Source of the DNA: Aphelidium insulamus
Taxonomy: Eukaryota > Aphelidiomycota > Aphelidea > Aphelidiaceae
DNA length: 64,000 nucleotides
Assembly: GCA_036784855.1 (NCBI GenBank)
Contig: JAZDSV010000005.1
Span: forward strand, 310,001 to 374,000
Direction of reading: 5' to 3'
In this document: piece after piece, positions 33,259 through 40,467 of the stretch
Layout: each line of letters begins with the position of its first letter
How positions within the stretch are numbered: the stretch's first letter is position 1
The notes under the pieces: generated by a model
Seen by the model: only the letters and a program-made list of their open reading frames with translations
Databases searched by the model: none
Told to the model about the DNA's origin: nothing
Translations under genes and position numbers: made by a program

Positions 33259-35981
33259 ATGGCCGCTCTGCGTCGCCCTGACAGTCAACACGTTCACCGT
33301 CTATGCTCCAACCAAGTTATTGTATCGCTAGCTGTGGCGGTCAAGGAACTGGTGGAGAATGCCTTGGATGCTGGTGCTACTCGCATAGGTACCGTCATTC
33401 TACTGCGCAAACTCATTCACAACAAGCCGCAGAGATCAAGCTGCAGCAGTATGGCGCCGCCAGCATTGAAGTAGCTGACAACGGCCATGGAATCGGCGCA
33501 GAGCATCACGCATCCATCGGTATCTACTAGGATCTCGCAGCCTACTCACACCGTGCTGTGTGCAGCGCGCAAGCACTGGACCAGCAAGCTGAGGCAGTTT
33601 GAAGACTTGGACGCGGTGCGCTCGTACGGGTTCCGCGGCGAAGCCCTCAGCTCTCTGTGTGCCATGAGCCAGATGACGGTGCTCACTCGATGTGCCAAGG
33701 ATTTCGATGCCGGATTCTTACTTGCATTTGACTCCGACGGACAGCTCGAGTCATCCGTGTCGGCACCGCGGCAGGTCAGAACCATACTTGACAGTGTGTG
33801 CTGCACGCTCACATCAACACTTTAGGTGGGCACCACTGTGACGCTAAAGAATCTGTTCAGTCCATTGCCGGTGCGGTTCCGCGAGTTTCAGCGCAACTTG
33901 AAGCGCGAATACGCCAAGTGCATCGACATGGTGCAAGAGTACGCACTGGTGGCTTCACATGTGCGGTTCTATGTCTGCAATACGTTGGCATCCAATAAGT
34001 CTGTGTTGCGTCAAGATATTATATTTTCAGTTGTTGAGTAATGATACATCCACAGACGCAACGTAGTACTGTCTACGAATGGCGGCGGTTCTCTACGAGA
34101 TTCTATTGCGGCCGTTTTTGACCGGAAACTAGCTGCGGCACTGCAGTCCTTCTCGATGGAGTGCACGTATGTCTATATGTAAACTTGATACACTATACTC
34201 ATTGCCGCACAATAGTAATGTTGTTGTGGAGGGGTTTCTGTCTAAAGCAGGCGCTGGAAACGGACGGTCCACTACTGATAGACAATATTGCTTCGTGAAC
34301 GGACGGCCGTGCGAGCTGCCAAAGGTGCGTCAGCTCACCAATTCCTCTTAACTTACTTGTGTATATTCAGGCCACCCGTGCCGTTAATGAGATTTATAAA
34401 ACATACAGCAGTTTACAATACCCCGTGATGTTTCTATCGTTGAAACTGGAACCTGGTACGTTAGTGTTCGGATTTATATATTATCGATATTGATTTTTAG
34501 GTTCGTTCGATGTCAATGTCACGCCCGACAAGCGCACGATATTCATTCATGATGAAGCCGCTTTATTGTCAGCTCTCAAGGTGGGTAGCAAAAATAACTT
34601 CATTGTTATATGTCTCACCTCGTAAGTGTCAAGTAGAAGAGTTTTGTCAGTCATCGGCTGCAAGTTTCGCCATACCGCAACCGCTTTCGTCTTCAGCTGC
34701 GAGTAACAATGCACCAAGCACGAGTGGCATAAAGTCTCCTATTACTGCTCGAGATTCTTCGCTAAAAATGGTGCCATATTCAGCCGACAGCAACATAACC
34801 AGTACATTTCATTCGTCCACTAAACTAGCGGCGAAAGCTGTTCCCTCTTCGCCAAGAAATTCAGTCAATGAGAAGCGGCCCAGCTATCAAATAACGATAT
34901 CCGATGAACCTCTTGACGATAGTAGGCACAAGAGAAAGCTTGTCGCACGCGATGAAGTCAACACGGCGCCACACTTGACTGGAGAATTAAATCTTCCGAT
35001 GGTAACAGATCCTGCACCTCCTTCAAAATTGGAAGCAGATTGTGCGCCTACTTCATTCGTGGAATTAGATTCTGCACCTCCTGCAATCTTTAACACAGAT
35101 CCTGCACCGCTTACATTCTTTACCCGCAAAACTCGACTTATAGAGGTGGACGCTGATCGCGTGAAGCGCAGAACCCGCCACACTTTTCGCACTGCGAGGC
35201 AGAAGCGTGATACCATGGTAACGAAGCAGCAATTGGATGGCGATGACTCGGCCTCAGAGGCGCAGCTTGAACGCATTCTGTGTCGCCAAGATTTTGAACG
35301 CATGACAATAGTGGGGCAGTTCAATCTGGGATTTATAATGGCATCGCTGCGTTGTGGAGACCAGAGCGAACTATTTATAATCGACCAGCACGCTTCCGAT
35401 GAAAAGTTCCGCTTTGAGCAGTTGTCGCAAAATGAAATCACTTCGGCACAGCGGCTAGTATGGTAAGATTATTGCATATAAATCCTATATTGCGCGCTCT
35501 GAAGAACTTACGCAGCCCACTTGCACTGAACCTGAGCCCCACCCAACTTTTGGTGGTTCAAGAAAATCAAAGCGAAATCAAGCGAAATGGATTTGACGTG
35601 GACTTGAGCGAATGCGAGAACAGCGACATGCCGCGGCCCACACTACGCAGCCTGCCTATGTTGAAGGGACGCACATTCGATGTGGCGGATCTGGACGAAC
35701 TCCTGCATCTGATGGCTCAGCGTCCCAACGAAACAGTGCGCTGCTCCAAAGTGCGCACAATATTGGCGTCCAAGGCGTGTCGTACCGCATGGATGGTGGG
35801 GCACGCAATGAACGTGAAGGAAATGGAAGCCGTTGTACGGCAAATGAGCACCATGCATCATCCGTGGGTACGTACTAATATATATATATATATATATAAT
35901 ATATATAATCAATGCGAACTGACCAAATAGAATTGTCCACACGGCCGACCAACAATGCGTTGGCTGTTCTCGACTAATTAA
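33259..35981 (+). CDS. PMS2: MutL-homologue mismatch-repair endonuclease subunit (PMS2 / yeast Pms1)
   Basis: PMS2 pairs with MLH1 to form MutL-alpha, which nicks the error-containing strand in mismatch repair. The N-terminal GHKL ATPase has [25 protein letters not shown], and [13 protein letters not shown]. Then come [21 protein letters not shown] and INVTPDKR-type ([11 protein letters not shown]) motifs. A variable, Ser/Pro-rich linker follows. The C-terminal domain has [14 protein letters not shown], the endonuclease motif [12 protein letters not shown], and the metal-site [12 protein letters not shown] and [10 protein letters not shown] motifs. I rebuild eleven exons. The last intron contains an (AT)n run (~35880-35905). 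The next gene starts only 10 bp after the stop. Confidence 0.94.
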
Positions 35982-35991
35982 TAGAATTTTC

Positions 35992-36462
35992 ATGGAATTC
36001 CCAAAGCGACGACAGGCCGCCGCCGTGGATGCCGCCGGCGCTGAAAATTCCGGCGATGCTGTCCTCGGTGACAAGGCGCAGCTCTCACAGGAGGACATTG
36101 AGTTCCTACGCAGCATTGACGCGCCTACGGGCGAGGCGGACGCTTCACTGGCGCTGACGGACAGCCCAACCGTCTGGGAGCACGTGGTGGCCAAGGTAAC
36201 CCAGCGACCCCTGATAGCCGCCAGCTTTGGCGCTACCTGCGTCGCCATGGCGTTGATGGTGCGTGCGCGCAACAACGCTAATGAAATGAATCGCTGGGGA
36301 CGGTGGCGCTTGGCGCTGCAGGGAATCACGTTCGGCGCCGTGACGTATGCCATGTATATGGACGGCCGACAGTCGCACAACTCGCCGTTCCCGTGGGAGT
36401 GGCAAAAGACTAAAATCGCCGACCAACTACAGCAGCAGCAGGCTAGCACGCAGGACAAATAA
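35992..36462 (+). CDS. HIG1-domain mitochondrial membrane protein
   Basis: Single exon, 156 aa. The hydrophilic N-terminus leads to a HIG1 domain: RPLIAASFGATCVAMALMV, then a basic loop with NRWGRWRLALQGITFGAVTYAMY. This gives two transmembrane helices joined by the QG..T motif typical of Rcf1/HIGD proteins, which associate with respiratory supercomplexes in the inner mitochondrial membrane. The tail is Gln-rich. It lies 10 bp from the MutL stop, and its own stop is 25 bp from the convergent SANT-SWIRM-OTU stop. Confidence 0.82.
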   Translation: MEFPKRRQAAAVDAAGAENSGDAVLGDKAQLSQEDIEFLRSIDAPTGEADASLALTDSPTVWEHVVAKVTQRPLIAASFGATCVAMALMVRARNNANEMNRWGRWRLALQGITFGAVTYAMYMDGRQSHNSPFPWEWQKTKIADQLQQQQASTQDK

Positions 36463-36487: not shown

Positions 36488-39047
36488 TCAAGAAGAAGAC
36501 TCGTTCTTGTCCACCTCGCTGAGGCGATACACAGACACATAGTGGTTTGACGTGTCAGTGCGGGTCTTGGACGGCTTCCACGCAATGTTCAAGGAGGGAA
36601 ATGCGCGTTCAGAGTCGTTGCCAGTAGGCAAAAGAAGCTCGTCCAACTTGTTCGAGGGCATGTCCAACTGTTGCGGCTTCCTATCACGTGCTCGCTGACG
36701 AGGACAGAACTCAAAGTGCGCAAGTTTGCCGTTGTCGTTCTCAAAGTACACTCGAACAGTTTGCTGGTAGCGCGCGGCAAATGCAGCTATGCACACGGCG
36801 TCCCCGACCTCTTTGCGCGTTGATATCTTGTCCAGGTACCTTGCCACGTACGTAGGAATTGCGCGATCACTGACAGTACATTGCATCTCCAAGTCTGTCT
36901 GTGAGTCAGTGGAGCCCATCCCAAAGATATCCAACGCGTATTCCGACACATTCTGTCGGATCTCATCCACAATGTGGCCCCGTAATCGATGCGCGAGTTC
37001 ACTTAGAATTTGGCGTCGGGCTGCTGGCCTTGCTTCAGCAAGCGCTGGCCAGCGGTTGTAGCATGAGAGCAGTTGATCTACCAGTGCTTCAAAGAGGCAG
37101 TCGCCATCAGCATTCCCCTCATCCACCACACGGAAACCATTGTCATGCACAAAGTCATTGAACACTTTCTTAACCTCCAGTTGAGATAAAAACTTCCTTC
37201 GTAACTCTACCAAATTTTAATTGATGGATACCCAACTGTAGAACATACCATCCGGCAAATGAGCGAGCCAATTCTCCACCTCGTCCCGGCTAAAATATTG
37301 TGCATTCCGTATCAACAGCCGTGCCTGCTCCATTTCAGGCCTGCCAAGTCTTGGCTTCTTCTTGACATCTCCGTGCACTATAGTCTGACCCTCCAGTAAA
37401 CTCTCCTCGATCCACTGGCCAGTCACATCATCGCGAACCCGCCTACTCCGCTTCTTCACGTTCCATGTACGACAGACAGCAAGCAAGTCATTGACATCGA
37501 TACTCTCGCAATCGCCGAAAGAAAGATCAAGCTTGGCCAGACAAGAAGAGTCAAACTGGCTACGAATATAGGCGAAAAGGTCTGATTCCGACGCAGAGGA
37601 GAGACCAAGTGTCCGCGCCTGCAACCTCCACTCCTTGGTGTCGAGACTCGTACGGCATTTCTGCAGCAGTGTGCTCAACTGCAATTCGTGCTTCTCATCC
37701 CAGGCGTCGGAGTTGGCGTCACTGCGCGGTAAAGGCGGCAGTGTGCGACCCATATCAGATCCTCCATCCGTTTTGTTGATGTAGCCTTCGCGGTCCAGAA
37801 AGTCGAATATGCGGCTCTGTGCGTTCACATCTCCCTCCCTGATACCAGCTCGAGATCCTGCCGATCAATAAGGTGTGGACTAGTACATGAATGTGAATCT
37901 TACGTGACTTTGTCAGTCGGAATGGCTTTGTGGCTTCCCATGCGTTCATAATGTGATTCCGTATGCGCAGATATCGTGATGGTGTCTTTGTGTGCAGCAC
38001 TCGCGGATGAATCTTGGCCAGCTCGGCTGGAGAGTCGGTCAGCAAATGAAACCACTCGGGCAGCGCGGCCATCTCTGCCTTTGTGGGCTGGTCGCGCGGC
38101 AATCGTGGTGGGATGGCACCGGATTCTTCGGAATCCACCACATCAACTTCACCGTCGTCAACATCATCACCACCGTCACTCTGCTCTGGTGACGGTGGCA
38201 GATTGACCAGAGTAGTGGGCACAATGTCGTCGCATCGCATAATGTCCAGGTCTGATGAGTCCGAGTCGTTCGAGTCGCTGACAGCCGCTACACTAGCCAC
38301 AGCATTATCTTCTGTTTTTGCGCTGCTCTCCGTTCCGCTATCAGCACCGTCCACAGGCTTGCTGGAAGGCACACTGGCATCACTGCACTTGCCGACGCGC
38401 TTCAGGTGTCTACCCCGATTCTTGCACTGCACTGTATTCCTCGTCGGTATCCGATCCGATATCAAGGCCCAGTGTCCGTATCCAAACAGCGCTATGCCTT
38501 GCAGTAGGAGTTCATCCTCCTCGGCAGTCCAACGCATGTTGAATGTGGCGGACACTGGCTGCTTGGGCCGCGGCGGTTTCGGCTTTGCAAGTCGAGAACT
38601 ATCATCCGTAGAGACAACTTGTGGCGCTAATAATGCCGTCTTCACATTATAAGGCGTAGTTCGCGGAGAAATTGGCGGGGAGTCGGCAGTAGGCATAGCG
38701 GACACGTCTTGTGGATTACACGTACCCAGCTCTTGGTGCCACCAGTCAGTCGAGTCTGAAAGCGCGGGCATCTCGTTATATGCTGCCACCTCCGCAGTAT
38801 AGTGCGAGGAAGGCGATATGGAAGCCTGTGCACCAGAGTCTTGGTTCAGCAGCGAGACGATGAGGTCACGCGACGCCGCGTCAATCTCGGCGTCGGTGGG
38901 GACAGATTGCCGCAAAGCGGTGGCAAACGAGTTGTGAGCCTCATCTGACGCGTCGTCGTCCACCGTATCCACATCGATAATGGGCTCATCTGCACTGAGC
39001 GCGCTGCTCTCTGCGGGCGCGGCACCGAATCGTTCTTCGGCTGCCAT
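36488..39047 (-). CDS. SANT-SWIRM-OTU protein, predicted chromatin deubiquitinase
   Basis: Three exons (39047-37904, 37857-37249, 37206-36488) total exactly 824 codons including the stop. In order: an acidic N-terminus; a SANT/Myb domain (RWTAEEDELLLQGIALFGYG.W, RNTVQCKNRGRHLK, about residues 170-220); and a second acidic stretch. A SWIRM domain follows (PEWFHLL, KTPSRYLRIRNHIMNAWE, GDVNAQSRIFDFLDREGYIN). The C-terminus is an OTU protease domain with the nucleophile in EGNADGDCLFEALVDQLL and a catalytic His in SNHYVSVYRL. SANT plus SWIRM is the layout of the histone H2A deubiquitinase MYSM1, but here the metalloprotease MPN domain is replaced by a cysteine-protease OTU. Both junctions have clean GT-AG sites and consistent phase. 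Confidence 0.83.
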
Positions 39048-39427: not shown

Positions 39428-40405
39428 TCATAGCCGGCGAGAGAGCAGTGCCATGTCATCCTCGGATGGATGGGCGGATTGCGCAACAACGTCAGCAAGA
39501 AATGGCTCAGGTGCACCCATGGCTGCGGCCCACTCCTGAATATCGGTGTGGCCATGCAGCGCGGCAAAGTACCGCACTCGATCGTCCCACGGACACCCAT
39601 TGTCCCGGGCCCACTTTAGCGCAGCAAGGTGTCCGCCCCAGGCAGCGGCGGCCGTGACCTCGGCTGTGCACTGATAGCCTCCATGCTTGATAGCCCACTG
39701 CAGTACGTGCAGGTGGCCGCCCTTGACCGCCTTCACCGCGACATCATTGTCACGCGGCGGAAACCCACTGTTGAGCGCCCACTGCAACACATCCAGACGC
39801 CCGTTGGCAGCCGCTATGGAACAGAGAAACTGGTCGCGCGGGCACTTGTTTTCGACGGCCCACTGTAACACATTTAGGTGCCCGTGAGCTGCGGCATTGG
39901 CCAGGTCGGCACGCCGCATGTGCACATCCTTTGTCACGAGCCACTGCAGCATCGGCACATTGCCGCTGGTGGCCGCGATGGAACACGCGTCAGGCGGCAG
40001 CTCAGCATTGCGGTCCATGTACAGATACTCTGCGACATTCGCTTCGCCGCATGCGATGGCGGCCGCGAGAAGTGCCTGCAGTTGGTCTGCAGTCACTGCG
40101 GCGCCGGACTCGACAACATATCTGGTCAGTGGCAGCGATTGTACGGGCACGCTGTACGCGGTACGTCGACTACTGTCAGTGACGCGGTCGTGCACGTCCC
40201 GAAACGGCCGAGATACGGCGCCAAACTGCAGATATCGCGGCATCGGCAGCCATGTCAGGATCTCCGACACCAGCGGCACATTGCGCAACACCGTCGTTGC
40301 GGCATCATTGACATCTGTGACACCGCGGTGTCTTTTGGGTGCTGTGGGTGCCGCGTGACAGCCAGCAGCCGCTACAATAACTGCGCACAGTATTATACTG
40401 TTCAT
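39428..40405 (-). CDS. F-box-like/ankyrin-type repeat protein
   Basis: Intronless, 325 aa. A hydrophobic N-terminus (MNSIILCAVIVAAAGCHAAP) looks like a signal peptide. It is followed by an F-box-like stretch (VPLVSEILTWLPMPRYLQFGAVSR). At least six ankyrin-type repeats have the pattern (A)AA.G(H)L.VLQWA...GCPW, for example AHGHLNVLQWAVENKCP and ANGRLDVLQWALNSGFP. This repeat subtype is common in amoebae, brown algae and giant viruses. GC content and neighbourhood match the host, so I treat it as a cellular gene. The signal-like start conflicts with an F-box role and is unresolved. Confidence 0.7.
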   Translation of the reverse strand: MNSIILCAVIVAAAGCHAAPTAPKRHRGVTDVNDAATTVLRNVPLVSEILTWLPMPRYLQFGAVSRPFRDVHDRVTDSSRRTAYSVPVQSLPLTRYVVESGAAVTADQLQALLAAAIACGEANVAEYLYMDRNAELPPDACSIAATSGNVPMLQWLVTKDVHMRRADLANAAAHGHLNVLQWAVENKCPRDQFLCSIAAANGRLDVLQWALNSGFPPRDNDVAVKAVKGGHLHVLQWAIKHGGYQCTAEVTAAAAWGGHLAALKWARDNGCPWDDRVRYFAALHGHTDIQEWAAAMGAPEPFLADVVAQSAHPSEDDMALLSRRL

Positions 40406-40467
40406 GGAAGAGCGAGTGAGAGATCATTGAATCCCATGTTGGATCTCACTGCATCTTGGTCACGTGT

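Follow-up and report, generated by a model that had tools for sequence, protein, structure and literature searches.

Can the docking half of a histone deubiquitinase work with a catalytic domain of a different chemistry? This question is raised by a gene of Aphelidium insulamus located in a 64,000-nucleotide stretch of DNA, hereafter the window (contig C118:310001-374000 of an 18-Mb, 169-contig eukaryote assembly labelled G000). The gene lies at window positions 36488..39047 on the minus strand, encodes 823 amino acids in three exons, and joins a Myb/SANT domain and a SWIRM domain to a C-terminal OTU cysteine protease domain. The histone H2A deubiquitinase MYSM1 (2A-DUB) likewise consists of Myb/SANT, the same type of SWIRM and then a C-terminal deubiquitinase-type catalytic domain, and is of similar length (722-840 amino acids in 13 Myb-SWIRM-JAB proteins). 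However, the catalytic part of MYSM1 is a JAMM/MPN domain, whereas the window protein has an OTU domain instead and gave no JAB/JAMM/MPN family match up to E 1 in a Pfam scan. The protein is not a MYSM1, as the defining JAMM domain was absent on testing; by analogy, it may work like one. We consider it, at a probability of roughly 0.6, to be a nuclear deubiquitinase that removes ubiquitin from chromatin.

The preliminary description of this DNA knew of no protein with the SANT-SWIRM-OTU combination, and none was described in the titles and abstract openings found in the open-access literature, a body of text that most subscription papers lie outside. Further, to our knowledge, none of the named OTU proteins OTUD3, OTUD5/DUBA, OTUD1 and Otu2 has a SANT-SWIRM half.

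One gene for the docking and catalytic parts

The three exons and two introns are all on the minus strand. Exon 1 (37904..39047, 1144 nucleotides) encodes an acidic and serine-rich N-terminus, the Myb/SANT domain and the first two-thirds of the SWIRM domain, and a homologous open reading frame (ORF), P0002, stops at the same junction. Intron 1 (37858..37903, 46 nucleotides, GTAAGA...GGCAG) falls within the SWIRM domain. Exon 2 (37249..37857, 609 nucleotides) carries the end of SWIRM, a variable linker with basic stretches, and a conserved PEMEQARLLIRNAQYFS...HLP ahead of the OTU, and is followed by intron 2 (37207..37248, 42 nucleotides, GTATGT...GGTAG). Exon 3 (36488..37206, 719 nucleotides including the stop) holds the OTU cysteine protease domain, as indicated by Pfam and the modelled fold. 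The exact frame and canonical junctions claimed from the sequence alone both held, with 2472 nucleotides giving 823 codons and a stop, and both introns being GT-AG. The intervals 37857-37904 and 37206-37249 given earlier for the junctions denote the flanking exon bases rather than the introns proper. Retention of intron 2 would introduce an in-frame stop after ...GMFYSWVSIN, and retention of intron 1 would shift the frame. In the same genome, gaps between adjacent JAB-domain pieces, which are distances between profile matches and not mapped introns, are about 40 nucleotides at the CSN5 locus, 53 at the Rpn11 locus, 102 at the Rpn8 locus and 115 at the eIF3f locus.

An open frame is weak evidence alone, because 156 of the 1672 GT/AG combinations around the two junctions stay open when start and stop are fixed. 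The gene model is singled out by P0001, an independent homologue encoded by a single 600-amino-acid ORF, 50% identical, which carries SANT, SWIRM and OTU: among the 156 open models, the one first described gave the best alignment score against P0001 (1095; runner-up 1077). P0001, located on a 7349-bp contig that is either genomic or cDNA, is gapless at both junctions (KSR|SRAGIREGDVN versus KSRARVGIKEGDVN, and HLPD|ELRRKF versus HLPAEVRKKF). The many open splice combinations would leave room for a pair of adjacent genes or for an error in the splice model, but P0001, with all parts in one ORF and no gap at either junction, rules out a two-gene or artefact reading for practical purposes, and we give it next to no weight. 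In lancelet MYSM1, apparent domain losses are reported to be gene-prediction errors (PMC6071037; here and below, papers are cited by PubMed Central number). As P0001 is a continuous ORF, this caution carries less weight in the present case. On these sequence comparisons, one gene encodes the SANT, SWIRM and OTU parts.

The fusion is not confined to the window. Residues 150-823 were searched against 5.8 billion proteins, and among the 7992 candidates scored (those sharing most words), 17 proteins were found at E <= 1e-3. Protein searches of this kind reach only relatives with shared short exact words, and more distant members may exist. Two matches belong to the same family, P0001 (E 6.9e-138) and P0002 (478 amino acids, E 7.1e-48). 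Thirteen others (P0003-P0015) are the Myb-SWIRM-JAB proteins, 11 with names pointing to MYSM1 (one also called "hypothetical protein" elsewhere) and two nameless, and the remaining two matches, P0016 and P0017, are of Myb type and lack SWIRM. When 4623 candidates were compared with an OTU-part profile that also included two paralogues from contig C2 of the same genome, two proteins matched: P0018 at E 6.7e-48 and P0019 at E 1.5e-33. P0018 is OTU only and P0002 is SANT-SWIRM only; as P0002 ends in LTKSRT, where intron 1 starts in the window gene, and both have the same 9594-bp figure as longest contig, they are probably two exons of a single gene, the third member, in which intron 1 occupies the same position. 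P0019 is a 337-amino-acid piece on a 1648-bp contig, and Pfam detected neither SANT nor SWIRM in it. It could be part of another family member or an OTU that stands alone, and the lack of both docking domains speaks against a fusion. A search with words from the OTU part of P0001 returned only P0001 itself among 955 candidates. Judging from these matches, the family beyond the window would comprise one certain second member (P0001), one probable third and one possible fourth.

The domain order proposed in the preliminary description was recovered by Pfam in the window protein, and P0001 has the same three parts, including the N-terminal Myb/SANT followed by SWIRM. The Myb/SANT domain spans residues 171-211 (38415..38537, minus strand; Myb_DNA-binding PF00249, E 2.9e-13) and its third helix is basic by eye. 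The SWIRM domain spans residues 321-409 (37775..38087, minus strand, split by intron 1; PF04433, E 4.8e-14), and the OTU spans residues 616-748 (E 1.5e-4). The Pfam scan of the protein showed none of the partner domains (amine oxidase, ZZ or others) that accompany SWIRM in the Swi3, Ada2 and LSD1 families. Sequence comparison firmly assigns the SWIRM to the MYSM1 type. By phmmer against PDB, it matched KIAA1915 (MYSM1; 2dce) at E 5.9e-9 versus 3.7e-3 for Ada2 and 9.3e-3 for SWI3, among 48 matches that contained no LSD1 chain. Pairwise scores were 129-142 against the 13 Myb-SWIRM-JAB proteins versus 63 and 59 against the Ada2-like and Swi3-like SWIRMs of the same genome. The closeness of the SANT to MYSM1 is not specific: among single-domain PDB chains, TRF2 (E 4.8e-6) is about level with the KIAA1915 SANT (2.2e-5), the top rows, such as SNAPC4 (E 2.1e-10), are sums over several Myb repeats, and the Myb-repeat protein P0016 scores 100 in pairwise alignment versus at most 92 for the MYSM1 set. 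The MYSM1 likeness suggested earlier thus stands for the SWIRM and falls away as a specific feature of the SANT.

By profile, modelled fold and motifs, the protein is an OTU-fold protein. Structure prediction, one of the checks proposed in the preliminary description, returned an OTU fold for the catalytic part, with OTUD3, Otu2, OTUD1 and OTUD5 nearest in structure comparison (best PDB match E 9.0e-6) and sequence identities to named OTUs of 13-23% in the structural alignments. The predicted catalytic Cys621 (37097..37099, minus strand) lies in DGDCLFEAL, with Asp618 three residues before it, and the predicted catalytic His806 (36542..36544, minus strand) lies in NHYVSVY. The Cys and His that had been visible by eye also occur in P0001, P0018 and P0019, so that the DG-D/S-C and NHY motifs are kept in all four proteins. 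A catalytically dead OTU serving as a ubiquitin reader on chromatin would accord with the divergence from OTUs of known structure, and the Cys, the His and the Asp at Cys-3, although present, are predicted from sequence rather than geometry. However, retention of both motifs in four of four proteins, at 35-49% identity to P0001, is as selection on activity would give, and we regard a dead enzyme as improbable.

Candidate action on chromatin

In the proposed mechanism, the protein would be nuclear, SANT and SWIRM would bring it to DNA and nucleosomes, and the OTU cysteine protease, if active as its motifs suggest, would take ubiquitin off there, monoubiquitin on one of the histones H2B and H2A being the most likely target. 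In the same genome, H2B ends in HAVSEGTKAVTKYTSTAQ and H2A in VLLPQKSKKGASQEH, C-terminal regions that we take to be the usual ubiquitin acceptors; both keep lysine, and both histones are therefore possible substrates. Separately, we observed that H2A (L036, L042), at this same end, has Gln in place of the first lysine of the pair that is usually ubiquitinated, and that an SQE motif occurs within the main H2A.

The H2B ligase BRE1 is present (PF08647, 35.6 bits, above its cut-off), this profile being a coiled-coil one with weak matches also in 5 of 14 prokaryote controls, and the RING in the BRE1 locus has BRE1A as its best match (E 8.6e-18). A search for the Polycomb RAWUL domain gave no match and is uninformative, because the control was likewise silent. 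Because BRE1 is present, we consider H2B no less likely than H2A to be the substrate, and the H2A target implied in the preliminary description is not favoured. Histone demethylases of the LSD1 kind bear SWIRM. Action of an OTU on H2B has a precedent, as Arabidopsis OTLD1 is reported to deubiquitinate H2B and to interact with KDM1C, a demethylase of the LSD1 kind (PMC5776116, PMC9845307). OTLD1 and KDM1C are two separate proteins, and OTLD1 is described as having no DNA binding of its own (PMC9845307), whereas the window protein has docking modules in the same chain.

Several points weigh against this proposal. The OTU scores 22.7 bits in the full-length window protein and 22.5 bits in P0001, just under the curated Pfam cut-off of 23.3 bits, which is exceeded by the exon 3 ORF alone (26.1 bits), P0018 (33.8) and P0019 (38.4). 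A phmmer search of PDB with exon 3 found no match up to E 10. For the third triad residue (Asp or Asn) there are two candidates, Asp618 and Asn805, both conserved in four of four proteins. The full-length AlphaFold model of P0001 is poor outside the OTU (mean predicted local distance difference test score 51.8, predicted template modelling score 0.39), and SANT and SWIRM consequently rest on sequence profiles. In addition, OTU enzymes frequently cleave polyubiquitin attached to targets other than histones, and most of what is known of the closest folds, OTUD3, OTUD1, OTUD5 and Otu2, concerns other targets or chains. The last point would suit an OTU that sits on chromatin and trims the polyubiquitin of transcription factors or repair factors, with the SANT-SWIRM half only delivering it, and MYSM1 itself is reported to strip ubiquitin chains from RIP2 as well (PMC6220254). 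However, MYSM1 and OTLD1 are both described as acting on histones (PMC7312997, PMC5776116), and we judge polyubiquitin trimming to be unlikely, though well worth bearing in mind.

Because the OTU is dropped at the curated cut-off, architecture lists based on Pfam cut-offs would show SANT-SWIRM only, and the precomputed domains of P0001 are indeed SANT-SWIRM only. The cut-off is therefore a blind spot for the OTU in both full-length members. If histone deubiquitination by this protein is true, the docking and cutting halves of such an enzyme would be units that can evolve separately, and the protein would allow a natural test of whether the choice of the histone mark to be erased is dictated by SANT-SWIRM.

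Origin of the fusion

Within the genome, the exon 3 OTU is nearest to two divergent OTU genes on contig C2, at 28-29% identity. The C2 pair (L045/L024 and L017) gave alignment scores of 112 and 106, and three other OTU loci gave 57, 47 and 37, the last being a partial domain; the corresponding z-scores, over 200 shuffles each, were 17.8, 17.6, 5.3, 2.8 and 2.1. Because of this grouping, the window OTU probably derives from a local OTU lineage, from which it was taken up and attached to a MYSM1-type SANT-SWIRM half. Two scans of bacterial and archaeal contigs confirmed no relative, and three scans of viral contigs yielded pattern matches but likewise no confirmed relative. Among viral structures there were OTU-type matches, many of them unnamed, with a best E of 5.5e-5 versus 9.0e-6 for the best PDB match, a comparison that would still allow an old viral source.

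The first of the C2 genes (L045:261-2383 and L024:864-1310, about 389760-392310) appears to be a MYND-OTU gene, with a MYND zinc finger at the end of its upstream ORF (PF01753, E 3.7e-11 when the two parts are joined over a short assumed intron; the linkage to the downstream OTU is likewise assumed). Its OTU is among the nearest relatives of the window OTU in the genome, but its N-terminus is a MYND finger and not SANT-SWIRM. A third divergent OTU gene (L024:4592-5236, minus strand, = L017) lies about 3.3 kb away on C2 and is 29% identical to the window OTU. Both C2 OTUs are without the Asp at Cys-3. Apparently, the genome holds a small OTU subfamily whose members have been combined with nuclear-type modules of more than one kind.

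Three genes with a SWIRM domain were identified in the genome, the window gene and two that we take from their sequences to be Swi3-like and Ada2-like. With the MYSM1 protein P0009 as query, the genome returned the Swi3-like SWIRM (E 1.1e-7), the SANT and SWIRM pieces of the window gene (E 0.004 each), three SANT-region matches on contig C88, and one JAMM piece (E 0.02). This piece was rejected as a hidden MYSM1, as it belongs to Rpn11. A JAB search gave 11 pieces that resolve into at least seven genes: Rpn8, Rpn11, CSN5, eIF3h, eIF3f, Prp8 and one further MPN protein near Rpn8/CSN6/eIF3f, which is probably CSN6 by a weak sequence match (top row Rpn8, E 1.2e-3). No MYSM1-type JAMM was found among these at least seven JAMM/MPN genes in an exon-by-exon genome search whose counts are lower bounds, and the absence of MYSM1 is accordingly supported, not proven.

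This absence fits a natural catalytic-domain swap without proving one. The metalloprotease of an ancestral MYSM1 may have been replaced by the OTU while the SANT-SWIRM targeting half was kept, a history that we put forward tentatively; if it is true, selection kept the chromatin address and not the chemistry. The OTU may equally have been fused to a SANT-SWIRM protein without JAMM ancestry, which would make the MYSM1 layout a case of convergence with no swap. This account concerns origin and is compatible with the function proposed above. In its favour, no JAMM-bearing relative was closer than animal MYSM1 in the searches made, and plants are reported to lack MYSM1-type SWIRM proteins (PMC3424641). 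On the other side, it is MYSM1 in particular that the SWIRM matches, and SANT and SWIRM come in the identical order; we treat a fusion without JAMM ancestry as a plausible but still tentative alternative to the swap.

Neighbouring genes and a histone H3 locus

On one side of the gene is a convergent HIG1-domain gene with a frame ending at 36462. On the other side, the upstream neighbour encodes an ankyrin-repeat protein (39428-40423, minus strand; Ank_4, E 8.2e-15) with an F-box-like N-terminus by eye. At 34501-35930 on the plus strand, there is a probable MutL/PMS-type mismatch-repair gene, apparently split by introns, with a weak MutL_C match (23.3 bits versus a cut-off of 25). Elsewhere in the genome (G000 C1:459996-460440; L038, L040, L041), a divergent histone H3 occurs in several pieces and is possibly a centromeric variant.
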